DNA of 64,000 nt, from NCBI GenBank assembly GCA_003313425.1, contig NHZP01000061.1:237353-301352 (forward strand), read 5' to 3'. The notes under the pieces are model-generated. The model did not search any database, was not told the origin of the DNA, and worked only from the letters and a program-made list of their open reading frames with translations. Below, in pieces: positions 1-63,534 of this stretch; position 1 is the first letter of the stretch, and each line of letters starts with the position of its first letter. Made by a program: the position numbers and the translations under genes. The DNA comes from Pseudopyrenochaeta lycopersici (taxonomy: Eukaryota; Ascomycota; Dothideomycetes; Pleosporales; Pseudopyrenochaetaceae).

Positions 1-396
1 GTGTCCTGCCCGCCCCCCGTGTCTATGTTCATAGACCAATTAGATCGAAGATCAAAGCGTGCCACACCATGTCAGATGACCACACGTCCGTGCTTTGCTG
101 TGGTTACTAAGTGCAGCGCCCCTAGTCTTTAAAAAGACTAACACTCCGTTGCGATCTCCAATCGCGGGCTCTGCTTACAGGTAAAGTGTCAGGGGTCAAG
201 GAGCACGGGGCTCCTCGACCACTTGACAACTTTCTAGTGAAAGGAATCATATATACGCAAAACGCCACACTAGAAAGTTGTCGGAGGGGCCCGTGCCCCA
301 ACTCGACCCATGTCTGCGCTCTCTCGAGCCACACCCCCATGTGACCCAGCCTGTCTTCCAGCCACAGGGAAAATGAACTTACGCAATTTTTTTTTT
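1..396 (+). ncRNA. Structured RNA element R1 (5' end outside window)
   Basis: Helices seen: H1 GTCTAT/ATAGAC; H2 GATC/GATC; P3 GCCACA/TGTGGT; H7 AGTCTT/AAGACT; H9 GCGAT/ATCGC; H10 GGAGC/GCTCC; core 227-280 (long form); terminal hairpin AAATG..GCAATTT followed by a T-run ending at 396. The missing 5' part is seen in the overlap copy at 63109. Confidence 0.6.
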
Positions 397-611
397 GAGA
401 GTTGGTATTCCATCCCAGGGAGGGCTCACACCATTAACAAATTCAGCCTACGCTACCAACCCATTTACATCCCACACTGTGTACTGTAAACACATCAGAA
501 TACAATAACATATAAATAATACAAATCTGTATACTTCCAACGAGAAGTAGAAAACACGATGCTCCCTACATCAGCATGCGCCCAACCGCAAACACCTACC
601 AGTGTCACATA
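397..611. other. AT-rich filler, cassette 1
   Basis: Lies between the RNA T-run and the stop codon of the KESG gene. No ORF is supported. It contains the post-terminator hairpin seen in every cassette and then AT-rich sequence. Confidence 0.6.
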
Positions 612-1410
612 TCAACATCGTAAGACTCGCTGACGAGGACATGACAGCCAGTCTTCGCCTCCCGGGTGTACTTTTCCTACGGCATCGCTGATCCCAGCAA
701 ACCAACCAGACATTTTATCTGGATATACACAAGAAAACGCATCCCAACGTTCAAACCTGGAGTGAACCCCCAACACTTCGCTACACGGCTTGCACACAGC
801 CTGTAAATGGCATTCGCATAACGAGCCGCTAGAGAGACCCCCCAGGTCCAACAGAACGAACAACATACTAATAAGAGTAGCATCCGCAGCCTGCCCATCC
901 GGCAAGACAATAAGAGGCAGCACCCGCTGCAGAAACACATCGAATGTCTGCACAGAAAGCTTCGCAAACGCAACAAGGCTCCGCACTTCGCCATTCTGGA
1001 CAACGTCCACCTTTACCACAAAGAGTGCGCATCGACAACCATCACTTGCGCAAAACTCCATGTAGTCCTCTAGACAAGATGCGTGTTGTTCGTCCACGCA
1101 CTGCTGAGGAGGCTTCCCGCTCTCCTTGGTGCACCACCAACGCACCTCGCCATTGAGTGCAAGGTGGCAGGTAATCGAAACACCGCGTTCTACAAACACT
1201 ACACCTACGTCAGATGATCTTGTTTTTAACTTCTACAGTAAAAAGATCAAGACACCTACGGGGCACGTGATCCCTCACAGCCTGAAAAGTATTACCGCTC
1301 CACACAGAAGGAACCCCTCTTTCACCTACACGTAAAGTGTACGGGCAAAATACAACGGATGGTCTACCAACCGTACCTACCAGAAACCTTTGTCCAGGCC
1401 GCGACACCAT
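612..1410 (-). CDS. KESG-family protein, cassette 1
   Basis: Unrecognised family. Exon 1 is 1410-1260 and exon 2 is 1198-612; the 61-nt intron has donor GTAGGT and acceptor after CTGACGTAGGTGTAG. Both exons join in phase 1, giving 245 residues. Visible motifs are WWCTKESG, C-x4-H-x2-C (QCVDEQHASC), CEC....C..C and WFAGISDAVG. The TATA box is near 1516-1521 and the cap-like CATCCATG near 1482. The start is the first ATG of the exon that keeps frame with exon 2 and sits in the GCGATGG-type context used by its relatives. The cysteines and histidine suggest zinc binding; no signal peptide or membrane segment is seen. A second, frameshifted reading begins at 63749. Confidence 0.8.
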
Positions 1411-1533
1411 CGCTATCACATATACTCCCTAGGAACAAGAGAAGAAGACAAGCGCTACACGCTAATGCTACACAAGCACCACATCCATGGATGATATAAA
1501 GACAAGAAAAGACTCTTATATGTCCCTCCAGAC

Positions 1534-1955
1534 CTTGCGCAACGCCAAGAGCACCTAGTCCCTAGCAGGCAATGTGGTGCCCCGTCCCTGCGTCCATGTT
1601 CATAGACCAATCAGACTGACGTTCTGAAAAAGAGTGGGCAAGCAGTGATCATCTGACCCACACAGTCCGTGCTCTGCTTTGCTTACAGGGGACAGCGCCT
1701 CTAGGCTTTAAAAAGCCTAACCCTTCGGTACTCCCTCCAGTCGTAGGCTCTGCTTACAGTAAAGTGTCAGGGGTCAAGGAGCGCAAGGCTCCTGACCACT
1801 TGACAACTTTCTAGTGAAAGGAATCATATATAGGCAAAACGCCACACTAGAAAGTTGAGTCGGGGCCCGTGCCCCCTCCATGCGCCACACTCCATGTGAC
1901 CTGGGATCGCCTCCAGCCACAACAAAATTGGACTTAGCCAATTTTTTATTTTTTT
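1534..1955 (+). ncRNA. Structured RNA element R2 (reference description)
   Basis: Helices in order: an outer stem near TTGCGC; CTAGTCCCTAG; H0 around GGCA; H1 (hairpin ending ATAGACC); H2 CAGA/TCTG overlapping a CCAAT box; P3 GCAAGCAG/CTGCTTTGC enclosing H4 GATC/GACC and H5 GCAC-like/GTGC; H6 GGGGAC..GCCTC; H7 TAGGCTTT/AAAGCCTA; H8 CC-TTC-GG; H9; H10 GGAGC-GCAAG-GCTCC inside GTCA/TGAC; core 1804-1857; GGGGC/GCCCC; CTGG/CCAG; terminal hairpin AAAATTGG/CCAATTTT and a T-run. The same layout recurs in all cassettes with different but complementary stem bases. This supports RNA (or single-strand DNA) structure. The T-run favours plus-strand Pol III-type transcription; wobble pairs do not settle the strand. 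The family is unrecognised. Confidence 0.65.
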
Positions 1956-2248
1956 CTGAGAGATGGTGTTCCATCCTGAGGGCTCCCACACCCTTACTGA
2001 CCAAGCTGCGCACCACAAATTCTGATTTGTTGTAAGGGCCCTGCCATTACTACATTAATACTCTTTTCGAAGAGATAAAAATAATTACACTGCTAGTATA
2101 ACAAACATACCTAGGACGCTACACTACTACTACACACCGATGCGGATTCCTGCACCTATGATTACTAAAAACACACGTGGATTACAAGATCACACCATTG
2201 TTAACAATACCATAGTATACTCCGTACCTTAGATAAACATGATGCCAC
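1956..2248. other. AT-rich filler, cassette 2
   Basis: Non-coding stretch of about 290 bp downstream of the KESG stop codon. It starts with the conserved block carrying GAGGG..CCCTT just after the RNA T-run. No gene seen. Confidence 0.55.
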
Positions 2249-3025
2249 CTACAGACTGGAACAGGAAAGCCACTCACACCGCAAGGGATGGACTTCTCCT
2301 ACCGCATCGCTGCGTCCAGCAAACCACACGGACTCTCCAAAAGGCCATACACAATGGAATCGGTCTAGACGAACAAACCTTTGAGATTTATAAGATAAAA
2401 ACCCACAAGGCTCACATGCCCTGTGCAGCGTACACGCGCAGTCCACGCTGGTGCTATACCATCCATTGTCTAACAACTGAAGCACTTCGTCAACAACAGA
2501 AGCCTCCGCCCTCTGCCCTCCAGGTAGTATAAGAAGAGGTAAAATGCGCTGTACAAGCACATCAAGTCCCTCTATTGAGAGCTCCGCAAACGCAACAAAG
2601 CTCCGCTCCACCCCATACAAGCGTGCGTCTACCTTGAGCACAAGGAGCGACTGTCGAATAAATCTCTGCGCATAACGTTCCTTGTAGTCTTCCGGACATA
2701 ATCTGCGCTTATGAGAAAGGCATTGGATAGGAAGGCATCCGCTTTCTTTGGTGAGCCACCAAGACTGTTCTCCCGACAATTCCATACAGAAGGTAAGGGA
2801 CACAGCTTGCTCCACCAGCTCTATTATTCTATTAGTTGGGGAAGCCCAACCTAACGAAAGAAGTACATACTTACTAGGAATGTGCCTCCGCACCTCTTGA
2901 ATGTTTGCCGCTGTCCCAGGGAAGGGGGAGCCCCTCTGACCCGGCCGAAGCTGGTCGAGTGACAGTAAATCACCATCACCAACAGCCTTGACCAGGCTAG
3001 TTCCCTGCCCGGTATACGATGCCAT
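2249..3025 (-). CDS. KESG-family protein, block A copy 1
   Basis: Exon 1 is 3025-2875 and exon 2 is 2820-2249. The 54-nt intron (donor GTAAGTATG, acceptor after AATAATAG) is in frame and stop-free, so the unspliced form is also open. The spliced protein has 240 residues: WW at 71-72, TKESG at 74-78, C84/C92 with a nearby histidine, C178xC180, C186 and C189, and SDAVG at 221-225. TATA box at 3081-3088; cap-like ACTCCGTG near 3050. The protein is identical to those at 6988-7764 and 30638-31414. Function unknown; a zinc-binding intracellular protein is an inference from the cysteines. Confidence 0.82.
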   Translation of the reverse strand: MASYTGQGTSLVKAVGDGDLLSLDQLRPGQRGSPFPGTAANIQEVRRHIPSKYVLLSLGWASPTNRIIELVEQAVSLTFCMELSGEQSWWLTKESGCLPIQCLSHKRRLCPEDYKERYAQRFIRQSLLVLKVDARLYGVERSFVAFAELSIEGLDVLVQRILPLLILPGGQRAEASVVDEVLQLLDNGWYSTSVDCACTLHRACEPCGFLSYKSQRFVRLDRFHCVWPFGESVWFAGRSDAVGEVHPLRCEWLSCSSL

Positions 3026-3100
3026 CGCAATGAAGTTTTAAAAAACACACTCCGTGCCAACAGCAGAGACGCTGTTGTAGTTATATACATCTCTTCCTTG
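3022..3100 (-). promoter_or_regulatory. Gene promoter with TATA box and adjacent hairpin (example)
   Basis: Minus-strand reading: TATA box (3081-3088); inverted repeat AACAGC/GCTGTT; CACGGAGTGTG near 3045-3055; start codon at 3025. The same order recurs in most cassettes. The stem between TATA and the cap-like motif is replaced elsewhere by ACAGA/TCTGT or GGGGAG/CTCCCC. The structured RNA starts about 20 bp on the other side, so the TATA box could serve both directions; that is an inference. Confidence 0.6.
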
Positions 3101-3543
3101 TGCACCGCCAAGAGAAACTACTACATAGTACGCAACAGGGTGCCCACTCCATGCGTCTACATCCATAGACCAATCAGAAACCCGATTGAGAGGGTGGTGG
3201 GGCCAGGTGTGTCTCCCACGTGCAACACAAGGTCAGATGACCGCACTGCCCGTGCGTTGTGTTACTTACAGGGGGCAGAGGCCCTAAACTACTCGTAGTT
3301 TAACGCTCCGCTGCCTAGTCCCTAGGCGTGCCCTGCTTAACGGTAAAGCCGTCGTAGCCAGGAGCACAAGGCTCCCGACCACTTGACAACTTTCTAGTGA
3401 AAGGAATCATATATAGGCAAAACGCCACACTAGAAAGTTGAGGCCGGGCCCGTGCACCCCGTGTGCCACACCTCCATGTGACCCAGCATCGCCTCCAGCC
3501 ACAGTTCCTGTGGACTTAGCCAAAAATTTTGGGATTTTTTTTT
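3098..3543 (+). ncRNA. Structured RNA element R3
   Basis: H2 CAATC/GATTG; extra helix GTGGG/CCCAC; P3 AACACAA/TTGTGTT; H7 AAACTAC/GTAGTTT; H8 GC-TCC-GC; H9 GCCTAG/CTAGGC; H10 GGAGC/GCTCC; core 3387-3440; the 3' end is the variant CCTGTGGACTTAGCC followed by a T9 run. Confidence 0.6.
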
Positions 3544-4956
3544 GACTTACCGTTTTTTTTTTGGTTGTTCCACAACAATAACTTACCTTACTGAGTCCAA
3601 CTAAATTCATACGACGTTCCCCGTCTACTACCAATACGATACTCTTGCACTACCCTTATTATTATAAGGTATATTCCTAAAAAATTAAATAAAATTTAAA
3701 ATTCAATTATTCTAAGACACTTACTGTATAAGCGCTCCCGCCCTTACCATGCCAATTCTTAACATCGTAGCAAAACTTCGTTTATATACTGCATAAAAAA
3801 CACTCCCAGTTAACACTGAGATGCATCCGCATACCAACAACGCAGCCACTCGACCCCAAACGGGTACACTGTACCAGGAGCATCACTGACCCCAGCGAAC
3901 CACGCTGAGTCTTCGTTCGGACGTATGCAGTGAAATCTATCCCAACGCTCGAACCGCCACTGCTTTCTCGTGAGCGCCGCACAGCATACGCAACCTTCAT
4001 ACAAGGTACAACCACACAACGCGCTGCTAGAAAACCGCCCGTTCTCCAACGCAGCGCACACTGCGAGCAACAACTGCACATCTGCAGCGTGCCCTCCTGG
4101 CAACACCACAAGAGGCAACACACGTTGCACAAACACATCGAGTGTCTCTTCCGAGAGCCGAGCAAAGAAGACAATGCTCTGGCAGCGACCACTTATCGAG
4201 GTATCCACCTTAAAAACAAGCAAGGCCTGCCGACTATCGCCGAGGGAAATAGAATCAACATGGCCCCTAAGACATCCGTCATGTTGTTCCTCCACGCACT
4301 GCTGAGGAGGCTTCCCGCTCTCCCGAGTGAGCCACCACAATACGCGGCCATCTTCTCTATTATGGCACGTCATCGATATTCTTTGTTCCACAAGCTCTGT
4401 CCCAGAAAACAAAATCAAGTTAGTTAGTCATCTCTAACTTGTTTACAACGAAAAAGCGCCTACCGTGCAAGTGCTCCCGCACCCACTGTATATTAACATC
4501 AGTCCCTTCAAACGGCTCTCCGCGCACACCTGGTTCCAGTGTGTCTATCGACCGCCTCTTGGTGGAAGCAAGAGAACTCACTCCATGCGGCGACTCCATC
4601 ACCCATCGCAGTCAACGAGGAGTTGACCAAGGAAAGACACCACCTCCGTGAATGGAGGGAGGGCCTCCCGTCTTATACATCCAGCTCTTGCGCGCCGCCA
4701 AGATAGTCTAGTCCCTAGTAAGCACGAGTGTGCCTAGTCCCTGCGTCTACGTCCATAGACCAATCAGAAGTCCGATTGAAAAAAAGAGTGGCAAAGAAGC
4801 GTCATCTGACTCACACGGTCCGTGCTCTGCTCTGCTTACTAAGTACTTGCCCCTAAACTAATTCTAGTTTAACGCTCCGCTGCCCACTCCGTAGGCGTGA
4901 CAAGTTTAACGGTAAAGCCGTCGTAGCCAGGAGCACAAGGCTCCTGACCACTTGAC
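3387..4956. repeat. Cassette block B, copy 1 of 3
   Basis: Recurs at 14434-16003 and 19145-20714 (offsets 11,047 and 15,758). Beyond the right core the three copies continue as ATATACACAAG, ATATAGCACAAG and ATATAGGCTGCGCC. The exchange point is therefore inside the core. Confidence 0.85.
3810..4599 (-). CDS. KESG-family protein, block B copy 1
   Basis: Exon 1 is 4599-4464 and exon 2 is 4396-3810; the 67-nt intron has donor GTAGGC and acceptor GGGACAG. The protein has 240 residues. Motifs are WWLTRESG (K replaced by R), QCVEEQHDGC, CGC....C..C and WFAGVSDAPG in place of SDAVG. TATA box at 4673-4679. An in-frame ATG lies one codon upstream (4602). The same gene occurs at 14857-15646 and 19568-20357. 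A GTAAGT donor lies downstream of the stop near 3725, so the transcript may be spliced again in its 3' part. Confidence 0.8.
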
Positions 4957-5107
4957 AACTTTCTAGTGAAAGGAATCATATATACACAAGAAAGTTGACA
5001 GAATGGGCCCGTGCCCATCACAACCCGTCTGTGCGCAGAACCCGCCACAGCTAACGTGACCCTGCGTGACTGTCAGCCACAGGGAAATTGGACTTAGCCA
5101 ATTTTTT
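4688..5107 (+). ncRNA. Structured RNA element R4
   Basis: H2 CAATC/GATTG; H5 CACGG/CCGTG; H7 AAACTA/TAGTTT; H8 GC-TCC-GC; H10 GGAGC/GCTCC; core 4956-4997 is the short form lacking the inner GGC..GCC hairpin; terminal AAATTGG/CCAATTT then T7. Confidence 0.6.
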
Positions 5108-5400
5108 GAAGACTCGATGTTCCATCCTGAGGGCTCCCACCCTTACTAACCAAGCTCCGCCATACAAATTCTTTGTTACTCTTCCTACTGCCGTATAACC
5201 CCTACATTATAACGTTAGTATATATTAGACTAAATAGTAACTCAATTTTCAAGGAAAATAAATAAAATAAAAGACATATACAACACATACTTGCTATTCA
5301 AAAATCTACACCCATAACCATAGCTTTAAAGGCGCCACCGGTCCCTTACTAAGACATGACACTGACTGAATACGTCCTCCTATAACAACCTGCCTATTCT
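5108..5400. other. AT-rich filler, cassette 4
   Basis: About 290 bp of AT-rich sequence with no supported ORF between the RNA end and the KESG stop codon. Confidence 0.5.
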
Positions 5401-6185
5401 TCATAGCCGGCACGTTAACCACTGCTCTCCTTCCGGCTGCATTATCCCTACTGCATCACTGATCCTAATAAACCAATAAAGCTTTGACACCGGCCTTACA
5501 GAAGAAAATCCTTCTGAACGATTAAACCGCCGTTTTTCATAAGACACTGACTCGCACTCTTTGCAACGCTTATCGAGCTTGCACCCGCAGTCCACGGAAG
5601 TTCCATAACACCCAAGGTCTAACCCGTAAAACACTGTAGTAACAACAGAGACATCCGCCGTCTTGCCGGAGGGCAATACGAGAAGAGGTAGGACGCGCTG
5701 CACAACCACCTCCAGTACCTCTACCGAGAGCTTCGCAAAAGTAACATGGCTCCGCACCACCCTATCCTGATGGAGCGCCTCCACCTTGAGGACCAGGAGC
5801 GACTGCCGGGTAACCCCCTCTGCACACAGTTCCTTGTGGTACTGTAAACACTCCGTGTGCTTCTGAGAAACGCATTCGCGAGGAAGCCGTCCACTCTCTT
5901 TGGTCACCCACCAAGATTGTCTCCCCGACAAATCCAAGGAGAGAGTGAGAGAAATACCGCGTTTCATGAATACTGCACTCATGTCAGATAGGCTCCCCTA
6001 CTGCCATCGCCAACGACACAAAGAGATCACCTACCCGGCACGTGACCCCTCACTACGTTAAACTCTGCCTCTGTCTCTACCGACACCGCGCAAGAAGATC
6101 CTTCTTGCAGCCCATCTATCGTCGATGGGAGGATAGGGGTGCCAGCGAAACCCGCCTCAGCCTCTTGCCCAGTGTGCGATGCCAT
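5401..6185 (-). CDS. KESG-family protein, cassette 4
   Basis: Exon 1 is 6185-6035 (151 nt) and exon 2 is 5972-5401 (572 nt), the same exon sizes as block A. The 62-nt intron has donor GTAGGTGA and acceptor after CTGACATGAGTGCAG. The protein has 240 residues with WWVTKESG, ECVSQKHTEC, CGC....C..C and a variant WFIRISDAVG. The start is in GCGATGGC context. TATA box near 6253-6259, with GGGGAG/CTCCCC beside it. Single copy in the window. Confidence 0.8.
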
Positions 6186-6276
6186 CGCAGTGTAGAAAAG
6201 ATGAAACTACACAAAGTAGAACACTCCGTGCGCGGGGAGGGGGCTCCCCTCTTTTATATGTCGATGTCTATGCTGT

Positions 6277-6694
6277 CTTTGCCAAGAGACACTAGTCCCT
6301 AGCAGGCAATAATGTGCCCCTTCCATGCTGTCTACGTTCATAGACCAATCACAGTACTGATTGAGAGAAAAGTGGGCAAGCAGTGATCATCTGACCCGCG
6401 ACGTCCGTGCTCTGCTTTGCTTACAGGGGCTTTTGCCTCTAGCCTCTAAAGAGCCTAACCCTTCGGTACTCCCTCCAGTCGTGGCAACGCATACAATGTA
6501 AAGTGTCAGGGGTCAAGGAGCGCAAGGCTCCTGACCACTTGACAACTTTCTAGTGAAAGGAATCATATATAGGCAAAACGCCACACTAGAAAGTTGAGTC
6601 GGGGCCCGTGCCCCCTCCATGCGCCACACTCCATGTGACCTGGGATCGCCTCCAGCCACAACAAAATTGGACTTAGCCAATTTTTTATTTTTTT
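6277..6694 (+). ncRNA. Structured RNA element R5
   Basis: H2 CAATCA/TGATTG; P3 GCAAGCAG/CTGCTTTGC; H7 with CTCT/AGAG; H8 CC-TTC-GG; H10 GGAGC/GCTCC; core 6543-6596; terminal AAAATTGG/CCAATTTT plus T-run. Confidence 0.6.
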
Positions 6695-6987
6695 CTGAGA
6701 GATGGTGTTCCATCCTGAGGGCTCCCACACCCTTACTGACCAAGCTGCGCACCACAAATTCTGATTTGTTGTAAGGGCCCTGCCATTACTACATTAATAC
6801 TCTTTTCGAAGAGATAAAAATAATTACACTGCTAGTATAACAAACATACCTAGGACGCTACACTACTACTACACACCGATGCGGATTCCTGCACCTATGA
6901 TTACTAAAAACACACGTGGATTACAAGATCACACCATTGTTAACAATACCATAGTATACTCCGTACCTTAGATAAACATGATGCCAC

Positions 6988-7764
6988 CTACAGACTGGAA
7001 CAGGAAAGCCACTCACACCGCAAGGGATGGACTTCTCCTACCGCATCGCTGCGTCCAGCAAACCACACGGACTCTCCAAAAGGCCATACACAATGGAATC
7101 GGTCTAGACGAACAAACCTTTGAGATTTATAAGATAAAAACCCACAAGGCTCACATGCCCTGTGCAGCGTACACGCGCAGTCCACGCTGGTGCTATACCA
7201 TCCATTGTCTAACAACTGAAGCACTTCGTCAACAACAGAAGCCTCCGCCCTCTGCCCTCCAGGTAGTATAAGAAGAGGTAAAATGCGCTGTACAAGCACA
7301 TCAAGTCCCTCTATTGAGAGCTCCGCAAACGCAACAAAGCTCCGCTCCACCCCATACAAGCGTGCGTCTACCTTGAGCACAAGGAGCGACTGTCGAATAA
7401 ATCTCTGCGCATAACGTTCCTTGTAGTCTTCCGGACATAATCTGCGCTTATGAGAAAGGCATTGGATAGGAAGGCATCCGCTTTCTTTGGTGAGCCACCA
7501 AGACTGTTCTCCCGACAATTCCATACAGAAGGTAAGGGACACAGCTTGCTCCACCAGCTCTATTATTCTATTAGTTGGGGAAGCCCAACCTAACGAAAGA
7601 AGTACATACTTACTAGGAATGTGCCTCCGCACCTCTTGAATGTTTGCCGCTGTCCCAGGGAAGGGGGAGCCCCTCTGACCCGGCCGAAGCTGGTCGAGTG
7701 ACAGTAAATCACCATCACCAACAGCCTTGACCAGGCTAGTTCCCTGCCCGGTATACGATGCCAT
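6988..7764 (-). CDS. KESG-family protein, block A copy 2
   Basis: Identical protein to 2249-3025, shifted by 4,739. Exons 7764-7614 and 7559-6988, 54-nt in-frame intron, TATA at 7820-7827. No differences were seen in the coding sequence, so duplication or gene conversion is recent. Confidence 0.82.
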   Translation of the reverse strand: MASYTGQGTSLVKAVGDGDLLSLDQLRPGQRGSPFPGTAANIQEVRRHIPSKYVLLSLGWASPTNRIIELVEQAVSLTFCMELSGEQSWWLTKESGCLPIQCLSHKRRLCPEDYKERYAQRFIRQSLLVLKVDARLYGVERSFVAFAELSIEGLDVLVQRILPLLILPGGQRAEASVVDEVLQLLDNGWYSTSVDCACTLHRACEPCGFLSYKSQRFVRLDRFHCVWPFGESVWFAGRSDAVGEVHPLRCEWLSCSSL

Positions 7765-7836
7765 CGCAATGAAGTTTTAAAAAACACACTCCGTGCCAAC
7801 AGCAGAGACGCTGTTGTAGTTATATACATCTCTTCC

Positions 7837-8278
7837 TTGTGCACCGCCAAGAGAAACTACTACATAGTACGCAACAGGGTGCCCACTCCATGCGTCTACA
7901 TCCATAGACCAATCAGAAACCCGATTGAGAGGGTGGTGGGGCCAGGTGTGTCTCCCACGTGCAACACAAGGTCAGATGACCGCACTGCCCGTGCGTTGTG
8001 TTACTTACAGGGGGCAGAGGCCCTAAACTACTCGTAGTTTAACGCTCCGCTGCCTAGTCCCTAGGCGTGCCCTGCTTAACGGTAAAGCCGTCGTAGCCAG
8101 GAGCACAAGGCTCCCGACCACTTGACAACTTTCTAGTGAAAGGAATCATATATAGGCGGAACGCCACACTAGAAAGTTGATTTCTGGTCTGTGCGCGAAA
8201 TCCGCGCCACACCCAGGTGACTCTGCATGGCCTCCAGCCACTGTGAAATTGGACTTAGCCAATTTTTTATTTTTTTTT
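7837..8278 (+). ncRNA. Structured RNA element R6 (chimeric relative of R3)
   Basis: The 5' half is identical to R3 as far as the core at 8126-8179. Beyond it the sequence changes: inner hairpin GGCGGAACGCC, then GTGCGCG/CGCGCCAC in place of R3's 3' domain, then AAATTGG/CCAATTT and a T-run. This is a clear 5'/3' swap at the core. Confidence 0.6.
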
Positions 8279-8555
8279 GATGTTCCATCCCAAGGGCGCC
8301 CACACCCTTCCTGACCAAGCTACGCACCACAACTTCTTCGTTCCTCGAATAGCCATACCATTACTACATTAGTACCTATTCCTATATATACTATACTAAA
8401 GAATATTAGTCTATAATCATAATCTCATAGCGTAATACATGAAATACTTCATCCTACTAACGTACCGTTTCTACTACCTTAGCATACTCCATATACACGC
8501 TTAACCATGAAAGGAACCTACAACTACTATGTTACTATAACATATGGCAACTTAA

Positions 8556-54038: not shown

Positions 54039-54304
54039 GATGTTCCATCACAGGCCTCACGCCCTTACCAATACAGCTCCACACAACAAATCCTTCGTTT
54101 TTCGGATGGCCCTACCATTACAAAATCAGTAACTACACCTGATACTAATAACAATTAATCTATCAACGTACTTCACCACAACGTACTAAATACAGCTACT
54201 ACACAAAAATGTATTTCTCATCATAACAAGAGTACATAATAACTACTACCTTAGTACACACCATACATAGGAATAAAGACCAGAAGAACTTACTGGTACC
54301 CATC

Positions 54305-55087
54305 TTACCAACAACTTCTGCAACTCAGCCATTGCACACGCAACGGATGTATTTCTCCTACCGCATCGCTAATCCCAGTAAACCAATCCGACTTTAACGA
54401 CCGCTTTATACCGGTAAAACAATTCGCCCAAACAAACCTGGACAAGGACTCATCACATACCAATGCGCAGGGCTCACACCTCCTGTGCAGCGTGCATGCG
54501 CAGTCTACACGCGTACTATAATACCCAAAGCGCAGTTGATGGAACAATGCCTCCACAACTTCGACATCCGGCCTCTGCCCCGACGGCGTTGTGACAAGAG
54601 GTAAAATGCGCTCCACGACCACATCCAGTGCCTCTACCGAAAGCTCCGCAAACACAACCTGGCTCCGCACTTGATCCCTAACCAACGTATCCACCTTGAG
54701 GACCAGGACCGACTGTACTCTACCGCCTCGTTCACAGAACTCCTTGAAGTCATCGAGACACACTGCGTGTTTAGGAGAAACGCATTCGCGAGGAAGCCAC
54801 CCGCTCTCTTTTGTTAGCCATACGTCTAAGGCACCATCCGGCTTTAGATGGCAGGTGAAAGAAATCAGTCGCTCCACCAGCCCTGTAACTCCGTAAGTTT
54901 GGGGAAACCCAACCAGAGGAGAGAGAAAACAGTACTTACTAGGAATGTGCCTCCGCACCTGTTCAATGTTTACAGCTGTCCCAGGGAAGGGGGAGCCCCT
55001 CTGACCCGGCCGAAGCTGGTCGACTGACAGTGATTTACTGTCACCTGTACCCTCCGCATTACTGCACTGTCCCAGGAGCGACCCCAT
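54305..55087 (-). CDS. KESG-family protein, cassette 35
   Basis: Exon 1 is 55087-54940 and exon 2 is 54882-54305. The 57-nt intron is in frame (donor GTAAGTAC, acceptor after CTTACGGAGTTACAG). The protein has 241 residues. The WW pair is replaced by VW in VWLTKESG; it has ECVSPKHAVC, CAC....C..C and WFTGISDAVG. Exon 1 and the region around the splice resemble 17953-18777. TATA at 55169-55179. Confidence 0.8.
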   Translation of the reverse strand: MGSLLGQCSNAEGTGDSKSLSVDQLRPGQRGSPFPGTAVNIEQVRRHIPSKYCFLSPLVGFPQTYGVTGLVERLISFTCHLKPDGALDVWLTKESGWLPRECVSPKHAVCLDDFKEFCERGGRVQSVLVLKVDTLVRDQVRSQVVFAELSVEALDVVVERILPLVTTPSGQRPDVEVVEALFHQLRFGYYSTRVDCACTLHRRCEPCALVCDESLSRFVWANCFTGIKRSLKSDWFTGISDAVGEIHPLRVQWLSCRSCW

Positions 55088-55186
55088 CGCGTTATAAAAG
55101 AAGGGAATAAAAGAGAATGTTCAGTCCCTGCAAACATTCACACTCCATGAACGGGGACATCCTCCCCTCTTATATACATCTCTGTC

Positions 55187-55613
55187 TTGCGCAATGCCAA
55201 AACACGCTAGTCCCTAGTCGGCAAAGGGCTGCTCACTCCATGACTCTATGTCCATACACCAATCAGAAGCCTGATTGAAAGAAAATGCGGCAACCCAGCG
55301 TCATCTGACCCGCGACGTCCGTGCTCTGGCTTACTTAAGAGTGCAGTGCCCCTAGCCTACAAGTAGTCTAACACTTCGTTGTTCCCTCCAGTCACAGGCT
55401 CTGCTTACAGGTAAAGTGTCCAGGGTAACCAGCGCAAGGCTGGTGACCACTTGACAACTTTCTAGTGAAAGGAATCATATATAGCACTCGAAAGTTGATT
55501 TCTGGTCTGTGCGCGCAGAATCCGCGCCACACCACCCCCTGTCCGCTCATCGCGCCACGCTGTCCCAACGTGACTGTCAGCCACACGCCCTGTGGACTTA
55601 GCAAATTTTTTTT
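55187..55613 (+). ncRNA. Structured RNA element R36
   Basis: H2 CAATCAG/CTGATTG; P3 GCAACCCAGC with GCTCTGGC; H8 AC-TTC-GT; H9 GT/AC outer pair; H10 CCAGC/GCTGG; core 55455-55497 short form; 3' half as R32. Confidence 0.57.
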
Positions 55614-55884
55614 GGAAATTCCATCTGAAGGGCTCACACCCTTAACAACTGAGCTCCGCACCCAACATTCTTTGCTCTTCTTCCCGAATCTACAAACCTT
55701 ACATCGTACCATTAGTAACTATTCTATAGTTTTTGGGTTATCCTTATTTTAATGAATTTGGAATACTGTAAATAAACAAAAAGTACTTACTATTACCAAA
55801 TGTACTTTTTTTGGGTTACTACATCTTAACCTGTCTCTTACTAGATACGACTCTGATAGACCACGTCTTCTTATAACCATCTAG

Positions 55885-56658
55885 CTGTCCTATAGACATG
55901 ACTGCTACTCCATAACCTTATGGCTGTACTACTCCTACTGTGTTGCTGATCCTACTCAACTACATACGCTTCCTATTGAGATAAACTCTATCAAATCCAT
56001 TGGAATGGGAAAACCTCCCTGACGCGGGCCTTATGCGTCTGCAAGGCCTACAGAAACCGAACTCGTTACATCCGCAGTCTACACTGCTGAGGAGGTTTCT
56101 CTAGCAGTATATGGAGCATACTCCATCAAGCTCTACAGCGTCTGCCCTCTGCCCCGACGACAGAATGAGAAGGGGTAAAATACTCTGCAAGACGATGTCT
56201 AATGCCTCTAGAGAGAGCTTCGCAAATACAACGAGACAAAGAGTCTCGCCCTAGTAGTTCGTATCTGCCTTGAATACAAGGAGCGACTGTTGCGTCCCTC
56301 CCTGTCTACAGAGTTCTCCGTAGCGGTGAAGACACTCCGTGTGTTTCTGCGAAATGCATTCGCGGGGAGGCTGCCCGCTCTCTTTGGTTACCCACCAATG
56401 TCGTCTGCCTGGCAAATCTGCCTAGGTAGTTAGTGACACACGCCGCTCCACTAGGGCTACTACTCTATCAGTTACAGTACCCAACTGATTGCGTGTCAGA
56501 AGAGAAAGATACTCACTGTGCACGTGATCTCTCAACGCTGTGGATGTCCCTACAGACACTGGGCAGCGACATCCTGCCTGTACCCCATCTACTATAGATA
56601 GGAGGGTGGTTGTGCAAGCGGACCCCGCAAAAGCACACTATCCAGTATGCGACCCCAT
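55885..56658 (-). pseudogene. KESG-family pseudogene, block F copy 2
   Basis: Same sequence and the same six in-frame stops as 49568-50341 (offset 6,317). Exon 1 begins at 56658; TATA at 56728-56737. Confidence 0.72.
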
Positions 56659-56746
56659 CGCAAAGTAGAAATAAAAAAGGATCCCTCAAGGGACTGCCAC
56701 ACTCCGTAGAAACAGATCCTCTGTTGTTCCTATATACCTCTCTCTC

Positions 56747-57165
56747 TTGAGCGCTGCCAAGAAATACTAGTCCCTAGTAAGCAATAGAATGCACATTCCA
56801 TGACTCTATAGACATAGACCAATTAAATCATAGATTTAGCTGGAGTGGGGCCAAGAGTGTCTCCCACGTGCCCACAACAGTCAGATGACCCGCACAGTCC
56901 GTGCTTTTGTAGGCTTACAAGGGGCAGAGGCCCTAGCCTACAAGTAGTCTAACACTCCGCTTCTCGTTCCACTCGTGGCCACAGCTTAAGGTAAAGTTAC
57001 ATGGGTCAGAAGCGCAAGGCTCCTGACCACTTGACAACTTTCTAGTGAAAGGAATCATATATAGGCTGCGCCACACTAGAAAAGTTGAGTCGTGGCTGAA
57101 AAATTTTTCAGCACCCCGGTAAAACGTGACCTCCAGCCACAGCAAAAATGGACTTACGCATTTTT
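56747..57165 (+). ncRNA. Structured RNA element R37
   Basis: 5' half as R33. Core 57035-57087 with inner GGCTGCGCC. The 3' domain has GCTGAAAAA/TTTTTCAGC, shared only with R23. T5 end. Confidence 0.56.
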
Positions 57166-57475
57166 CGAGAGGTTTGATGTTCCATCTGAAGGGCTCCCAC
57201 CCTTACTGACCGAGCTCCGCACTACAATTTCTTCATTGTTCTTACTACTATGCAGAATCTGTACAACATAATTAATTTGTGTTACAATATATACGGATTT
57301 TTTTTTTTTTTTAAAAAAAGAAACAGGAAATAAAATACCTATACCATGAGACAGGTACTTACCATTCCAAGCTATACAACTTCGTATACATCGACTCAAC
57401 ACCTATATCTATAGGTATAAAGGACCACCCCTCTTTAATTACAATAGAGTACTGCCACTCCATGAGCCACATAAA
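57166..57475. other. AT-rich filler, cassette 37
   Basis: 310 bp with a run of about 14 T near 57299-57312 and a GGTAAGTACC donor on the minus strand near 57360. No gene seen. Confidence 0.5.
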
Positions 57476-58269
57476 CTACATCCTACTTGGACAAGTCAGC
57501 CAGTCAACACCATGCGGCTGTACTACTCCAACTGCATTGGTAACACCGCTCCACCAGTTACACCCTGTACATAAGAATAGATTATCAAATCTACTGATCC
57601 AAAGGAACCTCCGCGAAGTATGGCTTACAAACCCACAAGGCTCACACCTTCTCTGCAGCGTACAGGCGCAGTCCACGCACGTACTGTACCACCCATGGTT
57701 CAACATAATGAACAATCTGTTCTCAAATAGGGCATTTGCCAACTGCCCCTCCGGCAATGCAAGAAGAGGGATAACGCGCTCCACCAGCACATCCAGTGCC
57801 ACTACTGAGAGCTGAGCAAAAACAACGAAACTCCATACACGCCCATGGGCCGGTGCATCCACCTTAAGAACCAGGAGCGACTGCTGTGCGGCTCCCGAAA
57901 CACAACCTTCCTTGTGACCTTCTAGACACTCCATGTGGTGTTGTTCCACACACTCGGCAGGAAAGCGTCCACTCTCTTTGGTAATCCACCAAGATCGCCT
58001 ACGCGAAAGACCTACGTAGACAGTAAGGGACATCCCATACTCCACAAACTCTGTGATGATGTTAGTCGGGGCCCTCCCCCAACTTCTTCCGTGTCTAGGG
58101 AAAAGGCAAGACACTGACTGGGCACGTGATCTCTCACGCCTTCAAACTCCATGGGCGTCTCTACAGACAATGTACAGGAACTTCCTTCCTGTATCCTATC
58201 TATTGCAGATAGAAAGGTGGATGTGCTAGTGGTCCCCACATCAGCACCCTGCCCGACACGCGACTCCAT
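57476..58269 (-). CDS. KESG-family protein, cassette 37
   Basis: Exon 1 is 58269-58119 and exon 2 is 58050-57476; the 68-nt intron has donor GTCAGTGT and acceptor after CTAACATCATCACAG. The protein has 241 residues with WWITKESG, ECVEQHHMEC, CAC....C..C and WWSGVTNAVG. TATA near 58345-58352 beside ACAGA/TCTGT. Confidence 0.8.
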
Positions 58270-58368
58270 CGCAATATAGCAGTAGAACAAAAGAAAACAC
58301 TACATAATGTAGGACACATCCGTGAAAACAGATCCTCTGTTGTTCTTATATAGACATGTCCATGCTAT

Positions 58369-58789
58369 CTCTGCCAAGACACACTAGTCCCTAGCAGGCA
58401 GAGGGCAGCCCATTCCATGACTCTATATTCATAGTCCAATCAGAAGCCTGATTAAATAAAATGTGGGTAACCTGAGATCAGATGACCCGCACAGTCCGTG
58501 CTTCGTGTTACTTACCAGGGCTCTTGCCTCTAGCCTCTAAAGAGCCTAACCCTTCGGTACTCCCTCCAGTCGCGGGCAAAGCTTAGAGTAAAGCCGTCGT
58601 GGTCCCGAGCGCAAGGCTCTCGACCACTTGACAACTTTCTAGTGAAAGGAATCATATATACACTCGAAAGTTGACGGAATGGGCCCGTGCCCATCACAAC
58701 CCGTCTGTGCGCAAAACGCGCCACAGCAACCCAGCGTGACTCTGCATGACCGTCAGCCACACGGAAAATGGACTTACGCATTTTTTTTT
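58369..58789 (+). ncRNA. Structured RNA element R38
   Basis: Outer stem CTCTGCC/GGCAGAG; H2 CAATCAG/CTGATT; P3 GTAAC/GTTAC; H4 GATC/GACC; H5 GCAC/GTGC; H10 CGAGC/GCTCTCG; core 58632-58673 short form; T9. Confidence 0.6.
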
Positions 58790-59384
58790 GATCTTCGGTA
58801 TTCCATCCCAAGGGCGCCCACACCCTTCCTGACTGACCTCTGCACCACAAATCCTTTGTTGCTCTTACCACCGTACAAAGCCTACGCAATACAATTACTA
58901 TACTTTACAATACACCATAACTTTATTTTAAAGAAACAGAAAATAAAAGACATAAACCGTAAAATAGGTACTTACCAATACAAACTATACTACGTCCCTC
59001 TGTAACTCCAACGTAAATACTCAGTATTTTTTTTTGTGAATTTACTGAGTACTAACAGAAACAAACAACCGGCATTCACCGTTCCCAGCAAGAGACTAGC
59101 TCTGCAGCTATATTGTACCATACACCAAACGCTCCCACAGCGCAAATCCTTGACGCAATATGTATAACACCTACACGGTGAACGAAGCCTTAACAGAGGA
59201 CGCATCCTGCCTGCCGTGTCCCACTATTGAGACCCTATGCATACAACCCAGAATCGCTGCTCCACAGCTAAGAGAGTCAAAACAACTTATAGAAGCGCAC
59301 CGTGCTACCAAAAAACGGAGCATGGTAGGGCATGTTTTTGTTTTGCCCCTAGCAGAAACGACATTGCCGTGAAATGTAGATGCT
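58790..59384. other. Long AT-rich filler with inverted repeat, cassette 38
   Basis: About 595 bp. Contains TACTCAGTA..TACTGAGTA (about 59018-59052) flanking a T-run, and a GGTAAGTACC donor on the minus strand near 58975. Plus-strand ORFs here overlap the gene and lack support. Confidence 0.5.
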
Positions 59385-59868
59385 CTACACCAGAGCACGC
59401 GCGTAATACCTTCCCGTGCATCGCCATAAAACCAACGAGAGCGCCACCAGCGCTGCCACAAAAGCAACAACCGCAAGAACGGTTGCTAACAACACATCGC
59501 TCGCTCCACGGCTACCAGTTGAGCCGCCTCCTCCGTTCATACCACTAGGTAGAGGCAACGTAGTCACGTGCGGCCACGACGTGCTTGCCACCCAAGTAGC
59601 CACTGTCTTGCTACTCGTATCATCCCTCCGGAAGAACACGCTTTCATGTGAGCGGGTTGGCGAACCCCCCTCGTCCACACTACGTAAAAGTGTGGTACCC
59701 ATGGCTATGAGCATACCATCCGTACGCATTGCGCGCGACAACAGCGTCCCGCGCTCGAGACAATTGGCCAATTCTGTAACACACCTCCGTGTGACGCACC
59801 GCAGCTGTGCAAAAAAAGGCCCCGCATAGCACAGCCAAAGAAGAGAACAGAATCACGGCAGACGCCAT
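59385..59868 (-). CDS. Type I membrane protein with signal peptide, cassette 38
   Basis: ATG 59868 follows a TATA box (59928-59935) and cap-like CAGTCCGTG. Residues 1-22 form a signal peptide (SAVILFSSLAVLCGAFFC). A small intron (46 nt from GTACGG at 59725, or 37 nt from GTATGC at 59716, both ending ACGTAG at 59680) restores frame to the second segment. The ectodomain is Ser/Thr/Gly-rich. A membrane segment, LLATVLAVVAFVAALVALSLVLW, lies near the end, followed by a ~12-residue tail. About 145 residues. No homologue recognised; a surface or envelope-type role is only a guess from topology. Confidence 0.6.
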
Positions 59869-59955
59869 TCTCTTTATAATTCTGCTACAAGCACAGTCCG
59901 TGCAGAAGCTAAGCGCTAAAGAACACCCTATATAGCGCCCTACCGACTGGTCCTC

Positions 59956-60356
59956 TCTGCCGAGATATACTATTCCATACTTGGCAGGGTTCTGCCCACT
60001 CCATGCTGTCTATGTTCATAGACCAATTAGATCACAGATCAAAGCGTGCCACACCATGTCAGACGACCACACGTCCGTGCTTTGCTGTGGTTACTAAGTG
60101 CAGCGCCCCTAGTCTTATTCAAGACTACCGCTTCGCTACTCCTTCCAGTCGTTGGCCCTGCTTACATGTAAAGTGTCAGGGGTCAAGGAGCACGGGGCTC
60201 CTCGACCACTTGACAACTTTCTAGTGAAAGGAATCATATATAGGCAAAACGCCACACTAGAAAGTTGAGGATGGGCCCGTGCCCCCCCCATGTGCCACAC
60301 ATCCATGTGACTCAGCTTGGCCTCCAGCCACAGGGAAATTGGTCTTCGCCAATTTT
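59956..60356 (+). ncRNA. Structured RNA element R39
   Basis: H0 GGCAG/CTGCC; H1 CTATG/CATAG; H2 GATC/GATC; P3 GCCACA/TGTGGT; H7 AGTCTT/AAGACT; H8 GC-TTC-GC; core 60214-60267; terminal AAATTGG-TCTTCG-CCAATTT ending in four T. Confidence 0.58.
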
Positions 60357-60719
60357 GACAGAGAACAAGTGATTTTCCAAATCACAACGCTCCTAAACTA
60401 TACCTATTGAAGCATTAAAATTCATCCTCACCATTTTGGTAGGACTGCAAACAGAGAACACACCCTGATATGAGTATCATACAAGTACATTGTCGCCCTA
60501 CTATAATAAGCTACGCATTAAACAAACAGGAAAAAGTAACGCCGTACATTACCACAATCATCGGTTGCAACACCACAATGACCCACTGGCCATGTCCCAC
60601 AAAGGCACCCGCCTGCTTATACAACACGTCTCTACATAACATTTCATAGCGTAACGTCCTGTCTCTACCAGAAGAAAAACAAGAACTAATACAGTAGGGG
60701 ACACCTCTTGTACTACGTA
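60357..60719. other. AT-rich filler, cassette 39
   Basis: About 360 bp. A 97-codon minus-strand frame overlaps 60511-60804 but has no upstream signals of its own. It is better read as 3' UTR or last-exon sequence of the coiled-coil gene. Confidence 0.45.
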
Positions 60720-61401
60720 CTAATAACCCACTGAGCGTGCACGCAGCGTTGTAACAAGATAATGTAGTTCCACGTGACTCTCCAAGCCCTCTGCAATATA
60801 GCAAAGTATCAGATTAAAGAGACTCACGACCAATGTGAGCCTCGACAATTGCATAAAGCCGTTCCACTTCTACGCGTAACGCTTCCACCGACTGTAATAG
60901 TTCGGTACCACCGCCACGCCCTCTTCCGGGCTTACGACAAACACAAACACGCCGTGATGGAGACGTTCTCTCCATACGCGTACGCTTCGCATTCCTTGTC
61001 CCATCAGAGCCCTGATCGGAAGAAGACTCTTCAGAATCTACGATGCACCACCGCTTCCGTCGCGGCTTACCCCTCGCCACCCGGTCTCGTGCAAACAATG
61101 GTGATGCACCTACAGCAGTACAGTTGATACTGTTAGGACCATCCGCCCCATTCGCTTCGCTGCAAGAGGTACCCTGCGATGCATCCAGCACGCACTCATC
61201 ATCGCCAACGATAAACCCATCGAGATCAGTATCCTCTGAATCTCCATCCGGCTCAGTACTAGACATTCCGTCATGGTTACGTGAACGCGCAGCCGCTGAA
61301 ACCATGTAAGCTACTCCATATCAAACGCTATACATAACTGTATACAGCTACTACTTACAAGACTCCGTTATAAAATAAGACGCAACACTTGTTTGCGCCA
61401 T
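60720..61401 (-). CDS. Acidic/basic nuclear-type protein with coiled coil, cassette 39
   Basis: Exon 1 is 61401-61359; the 63-nt intron has donor GTAAGT, CTTAC branch and TTTCAG acceptor; exon 2 starts at 61295. Exon 2 may end at a stop at 60814 (174 residues) or be spliced at GTGAGT (60827) by a 37-nt intron to 60790-60720 (193 residues); both keep frame. The protein has an acidic segment with DTDLDGFIVGDDE, basic clusters GKPRRKRW and NAKRTRMER, and a C-terminal heptad-like helix LLQSVEALRVEVERLYAIVE. It looks like a nuclear regulator or chromatin-associated protein, but no family is recognised. TATA at 61501-61508. Confidence 0.65.
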
Positions 61402-61518
61402 AACAATAGTACGCTGTACACCCACCTCCGTGTACTCTTAGTTAAGAGTGTTGCTGGAAAACATCCGTCCCACCTCCGTGAAAACAGAGAAGCTGTTATG
61501 ATTATATACCTCTCTATC

Positions 61519-61919
61519 TTGCGCACTGCCAAGACACACTAGTCCCTACGAGGCAGAGGCGTGCCTACTCCCTATGTCTACATTCATAGACCAATCAGAA
61601 TTTTATTCTGAGAAAGAGTGGGCAAGCAGTGATCATCTGATCAGCACGCGCCCGTGCTCTGCGTTGCTTAGTAAGTGCAGCGCCTCTAGTCTTTAAAAAG
61701 ACTAACCCTTCGGTACTCCCTCCAGTCGTAGGCTCTGCTTAGATGTAAAGTGTCCAGGGTCTCCAGCACGAGGCTGGTGACCACTTGACAACTTTCTAGT
61801 GAAAGGAATCATATATAGCACTCGAAAGTTGAGGGAGGGTCTGTGCGCGAAATCCGCGCCACAGCTAACGTGACTCTGCCTGGCCCTCCAGCCACAACAA
61901 AATGGACTTACGCATTTTT
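61519..61919 (+). ncRNA. Structured RNA element R40
   Basis: H0 GGCA/TGCC; H2 CAGAAT/ATTCTG; P3 GCAAGCAG with CTGCGTTGC; H5 GCACG/CGTGC; H7 AGTCTTT/AAAGACT; H10 CCAGC/GCTGG; core 61789-61831 short form; T5 end. Confidence 0.6.
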
Positions 61920-62264
61920 CGAGAGGTTTGATGTTCCATTAACAGGGCGCCCACACCCTTCATGACGACAGCTCCGCCATACAAATTCTTTTTTCTTGGC
62001 TTCTGTACAAAACCTACATACAATAATTAGTGAATAATACAAACCAATCTAAAACTGTGCATAATACTACTCTATTTCTTTGGCTAGGAGTAGTATACAA
62101 CTCAAATAGTACCTCTACCGATAATATGGCGTCCGCAAAAAAAACATAAAACTGGCTCTACCTACCAAAATTAACCCATACTGCGTAAAGCTATGAAAAA
62201 CAAGCCTATTCAGTAACATACCCTAACGCTTCTACTAAGGCTAGTTTACCAGTAACATCTACTG
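61920..62264. other. AT-rich filler, cassette 40
   Basis: 345 bp including an inverted repeat ACTACTC..GAGTAGT near 62066-62096. No gene seen. Confidence 0.5.
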
Positions 62265-63018
62265 TTACAAGCATAAACCATCAACATAACAATTAACTTC
62301 CTCGAGAAGACGTGTAAGACGACACATCTCTAAAAAAATGGCCTCTAGCTCCGCAGTAAAAGATACCATCTGCCGATACTCTTGACGTTTCTTATCATCA
62401 ACAGCGCTCCTCGTGCTCAACAACGTGTACCCGCCACTATCGTAACGTCGAAATCCCCCACGAACGGCCACTTCATAGCCAGACTGGTTTACGCCGACAG
62501 CCTCGAGTCCGGTGCCAAAACAACCGGCAGAAAAGGGAGCTCCACGACTCCATCGCTCGAGTTCATCGCGGAAAAACTCCTTCCGCACCTTGCCATGACA
62601 CGGTACCCGCTCAATAGTAACATTCCACTCGCTCCGCTGCAGATGGAGACGTCGAGACGAATGCGCTACCCGAGTCCGCTGCGCAAAACGACACCAACAC
62701 TTCATACTCCGTACAGGAACCTATCGGGGACACTCCATGAGAACCCACGGGTCTCACTGCGGCTACCAACCATGATGGCGCTTCCCAGCGCACCGTACGC
62801 CCACCGATACTATTCAGAACACCTCCCAGTAGTTGAGGCAAACTCAACCTCGCTAAGCGCGGCGGTGGGAACAGACGTCGAGTAACGCATACGCCCACTC
62901 TGAAGCCGGGTCTCCAATTGTCGCATCCTGACAACAACCCTACTCGGATGCACCACTGTGCAGACGCAGAGGACACGCCGACCACGGCGTACAATATGAC
63001 TAGAACTGTACAGTCCAT
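62265..63018 (-). CDS. Secreted or membrane-associated orphan, cassette 40
   Basis: ATG 63018 starts a hydrophobic N-terminus (CTVLVILYAVVGVSSASA) that reads as a signal peptide. Exon 1 is 63018-62715 and exon 2 is 62665-62265; a 49-nt intron (donor GTACGG, acceptor GGGTAG) keeps phase. The protein has 234 residues: an Arg/Pro-rich middle, one NVT sequon, and a C-terminal amphipathic helix (FTAELEAIFLEMCRLTRLLEE). No second membrane span. No clear TATA box. The frame upstream of the ATG opens only with GTG. Confidence 0.55.
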
Positions 63019-63108
63019 GAAGACCGCTCCGCTGCCCACTCTCTAACACTACCATGTGTCCGCTCCACAGACAAATCTCAGCCGGGTGTATCCAAACAGC
63101 CAGCACTA

Positions 63109-63534
63109 CCAGGAGTGACTAGTCCCTAGTTGGCAGTGTCCTGCCCGCCCCCCCGTGTCTATGTTCATAGACCAATTAGATCGAAGATCCAAAGCGTGCC
63201 ACACCCATGTCAGATGACCACACGTCCGTGCTTTGCTGTGGTTACTAAGTGCAGCGCCCTAGTCTTTAAAAAGACTAACACTCCCGTTGCGATCTCCAAT
63301 CGCGGGCTCTGCTTACAGGTAAAGTGTCAGGGGTCAAGGAGCACGGGGCTCCTCGACCACTTGACAACTTTCTAGTGAAAGGAATCATATATACGCAAAA
63401 CGCCACACTAGAAAGTTGTCGGAGGGGCCCGTGCCCCAACTCGACCCATGTCTGCGCTCTCTCGAGCCACACCCCCATGTGACCCAGCCTGTCTTCCAGC
63501 CACAGGGAAAATGAACTTACGCAATTTTTTTTTT
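63109..63534 (+). ncRNA. Structured RNA element R41 (= R1 with its 5' end)
   Basis: Same locus as R1, complete here: CTAGTCCCTAG, GGCAG..CTGCC, H1 GTCTAT/ATAGAC, P3 GCCACA/TGTGGT, core 63365-63418, T10 to 63534. Single-base indels against R1. Confidence 0.6.

Follow-up and report, generated by a model that had tools for sequence, protein, structure and literature searches.

The 64,000-nucleotide stretch of Pseudopyrenochaeta lycopersici DNA analyzed here (the window; C61:237353-301352, the final 64 kb of the 301-kb contig C61 in an assembly of 62.7 Mb and 188 contigs) is a head-to-tail array of units of nearly fixed length. We consider it likely that these units are full-length segments of a many-part, Rep-encoding element of the CRESS (circular Rep-encoding single-stranded DNA) type, which we predict to have been joined head-to-tail onto chromosome ends by its own Rep. 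When we call the element genomovirus-like, this refers to its likeness to published descriptions of multipartite genomoviruses. Three observations go beyond the original prediction, made from the window sequence alone: the units repeat a limited set of sequences exactly and follow one another in near-random order, such arrays sit on telomeres, and the junctions fall at the predicted nick.

Fixed unit length and a limited pool of unit types

The array (227..64000, + strand) comprises 40 complete units. A 41st, nearly a copy of unit 1, is cut short by the end of the contig. Its 41 cores lie at 227-63365, and the 26-mer CTTTCTAGTGAAAGGAATCATATATA is exact in every one of them. The 40 spacings measure 1566-1601 bp (mean 1578, standard deviation (SD) 8.9); on recount they matched, number for number, the core distances given in the original prediction. 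Its forty cassettes likewise correspond to 40 complete units, with the correction that these represent 32 exact-distinct sequences only: units 2, 5 and 20 are 100% identical over the whole unit, as are units 3, 10 and 13, and the pairs 8 and 28, 17 and 18, 32 and 36, and 33 and 34. Contig C61 is array wherever it was read (1-150 kb plus the window, 214 kb), its first 150 kb holding 95 cores at a spacing of 1536-1609 bp, and at least 832 exact cores occur across the assembly. Compared with unit 1, the incomplete 41st unit and the sequence upstream of it (63170-64000) differ by small indels, mostly in homopolymers, which are probably sequencing errors at the contig end.

Unit length was further analyzed in a set of 157 complete units (94 from C61:1-150 kb, 40 from the window and 23 from contig C23). 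Over the 87 exact-distinct sequences of this set the mean is 1577 bp (SD 11, range 1536-1609), and 79 of the 87 fall within 1566-1601 bp. An open reading frame (ORF) of at least 150 aa is present on the minus strand in 49 of the 87 sequences. Among these 49, ORF length ranges from 450 to 1194 nt with an SD of 175 nt, compared with an SD of 12.5 for unit length, and the variances of the three parts of the unit add up to 61,016 versus 156 for the whole unit. In another 19 sequences the minus strand has no ORF that reaches 100 aa, introns being left out of account, and their length is still 1566-1609 bp; at least two of them carry a longer ORF on the + strand. Since ORF length varies so much more than unit length, and since ORF-poor units are equally long, unit length is held constant against content, beyond chance or descent from one recent unit. 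As to the extremes of the range, the 1536- and 1609-bp units are adjacent (C61:1071-4215) and either arose by reciprocal recombination inside two other types or reflect a chimeric assembly at the contig end. A third short unit on C61, of 1542 bp, has its final 263 bp in common with another type.

The 87 exact-distinct sequences form 79 clusters, or about 80 types, and the Chao1 estimate for the pool is about 95. We compared 123 pairs of identical units. On the left, identity ends no more than 48 nt before the core begins in 121 pairs; on the right, it ends no more than 61 nt past the start of the following core, again in 121. Two shared two-unit blocks account for the exceptions. Ordered neighbour pairs recur about as often as expected (2 observed versus 1.5 in 2000 shuffles, P 0.43). 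In other words, the units are exact core-to-core copies drawn from a limited pool, and their order is near-random. Their orientation is uniform: in 8/8 array blocks located on large contigs it is the same relative to the chromosome end, namely + when the block is at a left end and - when it is at a right end (blocks among the first 100 places listed; C4 is counted as large without its length being known). The coding strand of these blocks points outward, as does the G-rich telomere strand.

Origin, Rep and telomere junctions

The core is a predicted replication origin. In unit 1 it occupies 227..255 on the - strand, where the coding strand reads TATATATGATT^CCTTTCACTAGAAAGTTG and the predicted nick lies between + strand positions 244 and 245. 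The further cores start at 1804, 3387, 4956, 6543, 8126, 9699, 11281, 12847, 14434, 16003, 17570, 19145, 20714, 22288, 23883, 25472, 27047, 28622, 30193, 31776, 33345, 34913, 36514, 38089, 39680, 41247, 42829, 44395, 45975, 47549, 49138, 50718, 52302, 53886, 55455, 57035, 58632, 60214, 61789 and 63365. Together with the adjoining bases the core forms an origin stem-loop (227..280 in unit 1, - strand), whose 13-bp arms, CAACTTTCTAGTG and CACTAGAAAGTTG, flank TATATATGATTCCTTT on the coding strand. At all 161 cores read, TATATGATTCCTT is unchanged; one stem arm is invariant over these cores and the far arm occurs in 16 variants. The invariant TATGATT^CC sits in the loop on the coding strand, giving the units a feature of CRESS-type elements, a stem-loop with a conserved putative nick sequence in its loop. 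We place the predicted cut at TATGATT^CC by its position, the nick itself being deduced from the telomere joints described below. Three cores, at C61:87830, 120944 and 135160, read CATATAAG where the others have CATATATA; their stem variant is TAAGGGCGAAACGCC.

Hairpin-rich common regions adjoin the core. In the case of core 1 they occupy 26..226, where the stems change on both sides between types, and 281..396, a second part that ends in a T-run at 387-396 (neither is assigned to a strand). Of the 87 sequences, 82 have a T-run of at least 5 no farther than 260 nt from the core. The paired stems of the flanking hairpins alternate on both sides, one set being GGAGC/GCTCC, CCAGC/GCTGG and GCAGC/GCTGC and the other TAAACTA/TAGTTTA, TAGTCTT/AAGACTA and TAGGCTT/AAGCCTA; in the first hairpin a minority of copies have mismatches. 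Because the stems covary, we take the common region to be folded, either as RNA or as single-stranded DNA (ssDNA), the covarying strand being one that would also be virion ssDNA. Reading the hairpins as RNA genes finds no Rfam covariance-model or tRNA match within the window. A CCAAT motif occurs on the + strand in the last 330 bp before the next core in 80 of the 87 sequences, a count for which no chance expectation was computed, and TATA-like boxes, judged by eye only, precede several ORFs.

Outside the window, one unit type contains an intact 392-aa Rep ORF (C61:100-102 kb, C61:114-116 kb and the right end of C23), and at least 11 Rep copies are present in the assembly, on array-bearing contigs. 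The protein carries the rolling-circle and helicase motifs VLVTWSQ, HYHAV, YCFK, GPSRLGKT, NDIDF and VTCNAD, which we take to be the HUH and helicase motifs of CRESS-DNA Rep proteins. A search among 5.8 billion proteins returned 13 relatives (E 3e-125 to 3e-39, 35-58% identity). The relative from Pyrenophora seminiperda, on a 242-kb contig, is named 'Geminivirus AL1 replication-associated catalytic domain', that of P. tritici-repentis sits on a 1600-bp contig, and further relatives come from jgi/lgn contigs that measure 1.4-24.9 kb, with five of these contigs at 1.4-1.9 kb. Precomputed geminivirus-type Rep domains (PF00799/PF08283/PF23343) are found in 5/13 relatives, and the tyrosine of motif III is absent in three (P0009, P0010 and P0012). 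Judged by its motifs and relatives, the 392-aa protein is a CRESS-type Rep. A second unit type (C61:26307-27913) encodes a capsid candidate, a 398-aa ORF with a basic N-terminus. Plasmids searched with one unit, viral contigs searched with one ORF, with the core and with the Rep alignment, and prokaryote genomes searched with the core gave no match.

The link to telomeres comes from sister arrays made of the same units. The telomere repeat of the assembly is TTAGGG. Five array-to-host boundaries were picked blind, by choosing from the list of cores at a time when no rule had yet emerged, and all five read TAGTGAAAGGAA, then (CCCTAA)2-3, then host sequence; a sixth stretch, on C5, stopped short of the host. 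A pattern search for unit-telomere joints yielded 40 sites, all of which were read, 20 being host boundaries and 20 lying between units; these sites lie at the cut by construction of the search, whereas the five blind boundaries lie there without any such selection. The host boundaries, which fall into 12 flank classes grouped by eye, contain one repeat in 1 case, two in 13 and three in 6. The tracts between units contain one repeat in seven cases, two in two, three in five, four in four and five in one, with one irregular. On the coding strand nearly all junctions read ...TATATATGA(TTAGGG)nTT followed directly by CC..., mostly with n = 0. The units thus share with MoTeR/FoTeR elements a head-to-tail arrangement in the telomere with TTAGGG tracts between copies. 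In the irregular tract (C65:246635) three repeats are followed by a core missing its first bases (TATATAGGC), possibly a mis-joined or healed end.

Units lie directly beneath the telomere at 11 of 13 telomere-bearing contig ends (among 100 of 203 positions listed). Among these listed ends, 4 of the 11 start exactly at the cut (C18, C50, C92 and C99), and a pattern search added three more capped ends at the cut (C77, C118 and C119). The telomere tracts of these seven ends at the nick are about 29-144 nt long. The other two telomere ends, of C17 and C95, have no unit within the 1.0-1.2 kb read. The end of C17 represents an empty site: here 22 plain repeats follow the flank that on C101, C120 and C124 lies under an array, the flanks being identical across 140-144 nt. 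At their outer ends C65 and C89 have one truncated unit-telomere joint in common, which indicates that sequence is copied from one chromosome end to another.

Mechanism and rival explanations

In HUH Rep chemistry, Rep bound to a 5' end can rejoin that end to a matching 3' end, and from this we infer that 5'-CC could be joined to any 3' end in ...TT. Rep would nick the coding (virion) strand at TATGATT^CC, stay on the 5' end and pass it to a 3' end of the chromosome that terminates in ...TT. This acceptor could be telomeric (...TTAGGGTT) or the ...TATGATT of the preceding unit. The new 3' end would then take the next unit or be extended by telomerase. A junction without telomerase repeats (n = 0) would rebuild a complete origin, so that Rep could later excise exactly one unit between two origins. 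Rejoining to 3' ends like its own, with occasional telomerase activity, would explain the exact boundaries, the near-random order, the single orientation, the restored origins and the inter-unit tracts. Unit length would be set by the molecule that replicates and is probably packaged, not by gene content. The earlier suggestion that cassettes may be released, replicated or packaged singly, as molecules of about 1.58 kb, is thus largely supported, by the Rep gene, the stem-loop origin, the boundaries at the predicted nick and the equal segments, which recall a known fungal ssDNA virus with four segments. Nucleosome phasing (8 x 197), raised at the same time, was set aside as superfluous once the unit is an origin-to-origin molecule. 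In its boldest form, to which we incline with some reserve, the element would be a hyper-multipartite CRESS virus with 80-100 equal segments, whose Rep welds segments onto telomeric 3' ends as if they were the ends of its own origin. With the same reserve, we favour chromosome ends serving such a virus as archive, replication template and substitute telomere extension, up to hundreds of kb long.

Several points weigh against this reading. The evidence is a genome assembly, and free circle, ssDNA and particle are predictions. In the 214 kb read, contig C61 has no telomere repeat, host flank or Rep-telomere joint, and it is absent from the genome-wide lists of telomere-joint patterns; hence the telomere link is drawn from the sister arrays. 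Among the capped ends listed, 7 of 11 start off the nick (C5, C54, C65, C83, C89, C98 and C102). Local Rep pieces match Rep models weakly (E 4.6e-4 to 8.3e-3), under the Pfam cut-offs, and for this reason the Rep assignment depends on motifs and relatives. The capsid candidate has no Pfam family above the cut-off and no PDB match, which leaves packaging unproven. Identical neighbours are mildly enriched (5 versus 1.8 in shuffles, P 0.03), and window units 1-2 are found together again on C120 and at C61:139.9 kb, so block copying also occurs. Finally, about 80 types are far above the 3-4 segments of described multipartite genomoviruses. We lean toward a helper (Rep, capsid candidate and few others) accompanied by a swarm of dependent segments, rather than one genome of about 80 types.

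Of the alternatives, domestication seems doubtful to us but is the least unlikely: the host would keep the arrays as a gene repertoire or telomere buffer, the units being no longer infectious, in a polydnavirus- or HeT-A-like manner. The position of units beneath 11/13 telomeres among the ends listed would fit, as would the large orphan family under purifying selection (described below) and the lack of any autonomous virus in the assembly data. However, Rep and other units exist as 100% identical copies with open frames, which indicates recent amplification, and five jgi/lgn relatives of Rep, together with that of P. tritici-repentis, are on contigs of 1.4-1.9 kb, near unit size, although size alone is no proof. 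It is also unlikely, in our judgement, that Rep inserts units in a Helitron-like fashion into double-stranded telomeric DNA or existing origins rather than at chromosome tips. Insertion at GGTT^AGGG would give identical junctions, and in most junctions a repeat is absent (20 inter-unit tracts compared with 832 or more exact cores), as insertion into an origin would produce. Whether units were added at the tip or inserted into telomeric or origin DNA, the resulting scars are the same. What speaks for addition at tips is that just 1-3 repeats are present at 20/20 host boundaries, compared with about 29-144 nt at the seven capped nick ends. This argument is weak, since in Magnaporthe interstitial telomere tracts of three or more repeats break easily, according to the account in PMC7367193; the short tracts may thus be the remnants left by breakage.

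An ordinary subtelomeric tandem gene family, made equal in length by recent descent from a single unit, unequal crossing-over and gene conversion, is very unlikely. The arrays are tandem and subtelomeric with a single dominant gene family, some blocks are common to several places and a few internal recombinants exist. Nevertheless, unrelated contents have equal length, identity between copy pairs nearly always stops at the core, telomere joints fall at one base and the arrays encode Rep. Least credible of all is an assembly artefact, the assembler having chained together reads that came from free viral circles. This would account for the contig-end unit with its indel differences (core 41 versus core 1) and for C61 being array wherever read, without a host joint, but not for the independent host-telomere-array structures with base-exact joints on many other contigs, nor for the empty site.

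Gene content and comparison with known systems

The dominant orphan family of the window is encoded on the minus strand, with members at 2249..3025 (258 aa; identical copies at 6988-7764 and 30638-31414), 3810..4373 (187 aa; identical copies at 14857-15420 and 19568-20131), 5401..5982 (193 aa), 10077..10922 (281 aa), 11660..12283 (207 aa; identical copy at 43208-43831), 17953..18777 (274 aa), 25819..26688 (289 aa; identical copy at 27394-28263), 33748..34623 (291 aa), 40109..40894 (261 aa), 47979..48587 (202 aa), 54305..55087 (260 aa) and 57476..58033 (185 aa). A search of 5.8 billion proteins with one member, that of 258 aa at 2249..3025, gave no relative at E<=0.01. A predicted structure has a mean pLDDT (predicted local distance difference test) of 51.5 and gave no useful PDB match. 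For these 12 ORFs (66 pairs, 9 of them without a finite synonymous rate), the ratio of nonsynonymous to synonymous substitution rates (dN/dS) is below 1 in 57/57 usable pairs (median 0.35), indicating that the family is under purifying selection. Other units differ in content. A Rad52-like protein of 282 aa (36826..37674, - strand) matches Pfam PF04098 (E 7.2e-28) and RAD52 in the PDB (E 5.6e-20) and has one database relative (E 2.4e-14); another unit encodes an F-box-like protein, whose match is below the Pfam cut-off. The remaining orphan ORFs, again on the - strand, have no Pfam family above the cut-off in units 9 (13414..13989, 191 aa) and 27 (41753..42346, 197 aa) and no Pfam match in units 15 (22620..23291, 223 aa), 33 (51033..51644, 203 aa, with an identical copy at 52617-53228 in unit 34) and 39 (60814..61305, 163 aa).

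Elsewhere in the genome, a hAT-type transposase-like gene with an intron, judged by eye, lies inland of the left array of C23 (C23:60001-64000). At least 150 HET-domain matches at E <= 1e-10 are spread over many contigs (520 candidates, 150 scored), with 0 in 14 control genomes, which amounts to a very large heterokaryon-incompatibility repertoire. HET domains are a mark of filamentous ascomycetes, and together with the TTAGGG telomeres and the Pyrenophora relatives of Rep they make such a fungus the probable host; a thraustochytrid host, also considered, found no support.

Our literature search, mostly at title and abstract level, found no ssDNA virus in fungal telomeres; the literature searched describes neither an ssDNA element whose origin links it to telomeres nor an ssDNA virus that has tens of segments. 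Within these bounds the original prediction was right that no described element has this layout as a whole; its parts have close analogues in multipartite genomoviruses and MoTeR/FoTeR arrays. If our reading is correct, no earlier ssDNA virus or element in that literature adds itself to telomeres. The segment number of a multipartite ssDNA virus would go up about tenfold, and mobile elements would have a reverse-transcriptase-free route to lengthen chromosomes. The inter-unit tracts would form a layered record of successive additions, from which the order and rate of insertion could be read. The cause of equal segment size in multipartite viruses would also become testable, given 79/87 unit sequences within a 36-bp range, with or without a long minus-strand ORF.

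Among known systems, geminiviruses cut TAATATT^AC. Helitrons and HUH transposons resemble the present element in HUH nicking, in duplication-free insertion and in bases common to the 3' end and the acceptor; Helitrons differ in having another helicase and the ends 5'-TC...CTRR-3', whereas here the ends are 5'-CC...TT-3' and the target is telomeric. The DNA of human herpesvirus 6 (HHV-6) is also found in telomeres, but this is a large double-stranded DNA virus with its own TTAGGG repeats, and Drosophila HeT-A also adds to chromosome ends, but by reverse transcription. With regard to integron-like arrays, Pfam matches of unit ORFs include no integrase, although integrase and attC were not specifically searched for. 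The geminivirus-like transposon of Tuber melanosporum is likewise a Rep-bearing repeated fungal element; it differs in its 37-bp terminal inverted repeats, interspersed distribution and transposase ORFs, and the portion of PMC3198968 available to us describes no fixed-length array or telomere joint.

The multipartite genomoviruses BcssDV1 (Botrytis cinerea ssDNA virus 1) and FgGMTV1 are closer: as here, Rep is on one segment, segments are near-equal with one gene each and common regions, and the origin is cut after ...TT (PMC10731770). According to the same account, the four segments of BcssDV1 measure 1690, 1690, 1669 and 1707 nt and have common regions, and its stem-loop origin reads TACTCTT^CA, or TACTCTT^AG in DNA-C. 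BcssDV1 and FgGMTV1 have 4 and 3 segments, respectively, whereas we count about 80 types (Chao1 about 95) with only a candidate capsid, and the telomeric arrays seen here have no reported counterpart in what PMC10731770 relates, in the part available, of multipartite genomoviruses. The arrangement on chromosomes resembles that of MoTeR/FoTeR, which are also fungal chromosome-end elements, MoTeRs being described as head-to-tail, in one orientation and with (TTAGGG)n between copies (PMC7367193, PMC12857005). A Pfam scan of 28 unit ORFs (30 queries) found no reverse transcriptase. MoTeR/FoTeR are non-LTR (long terminal repeat) retrotransposons, whereas the enzyme of the present element is a DNA Rep.

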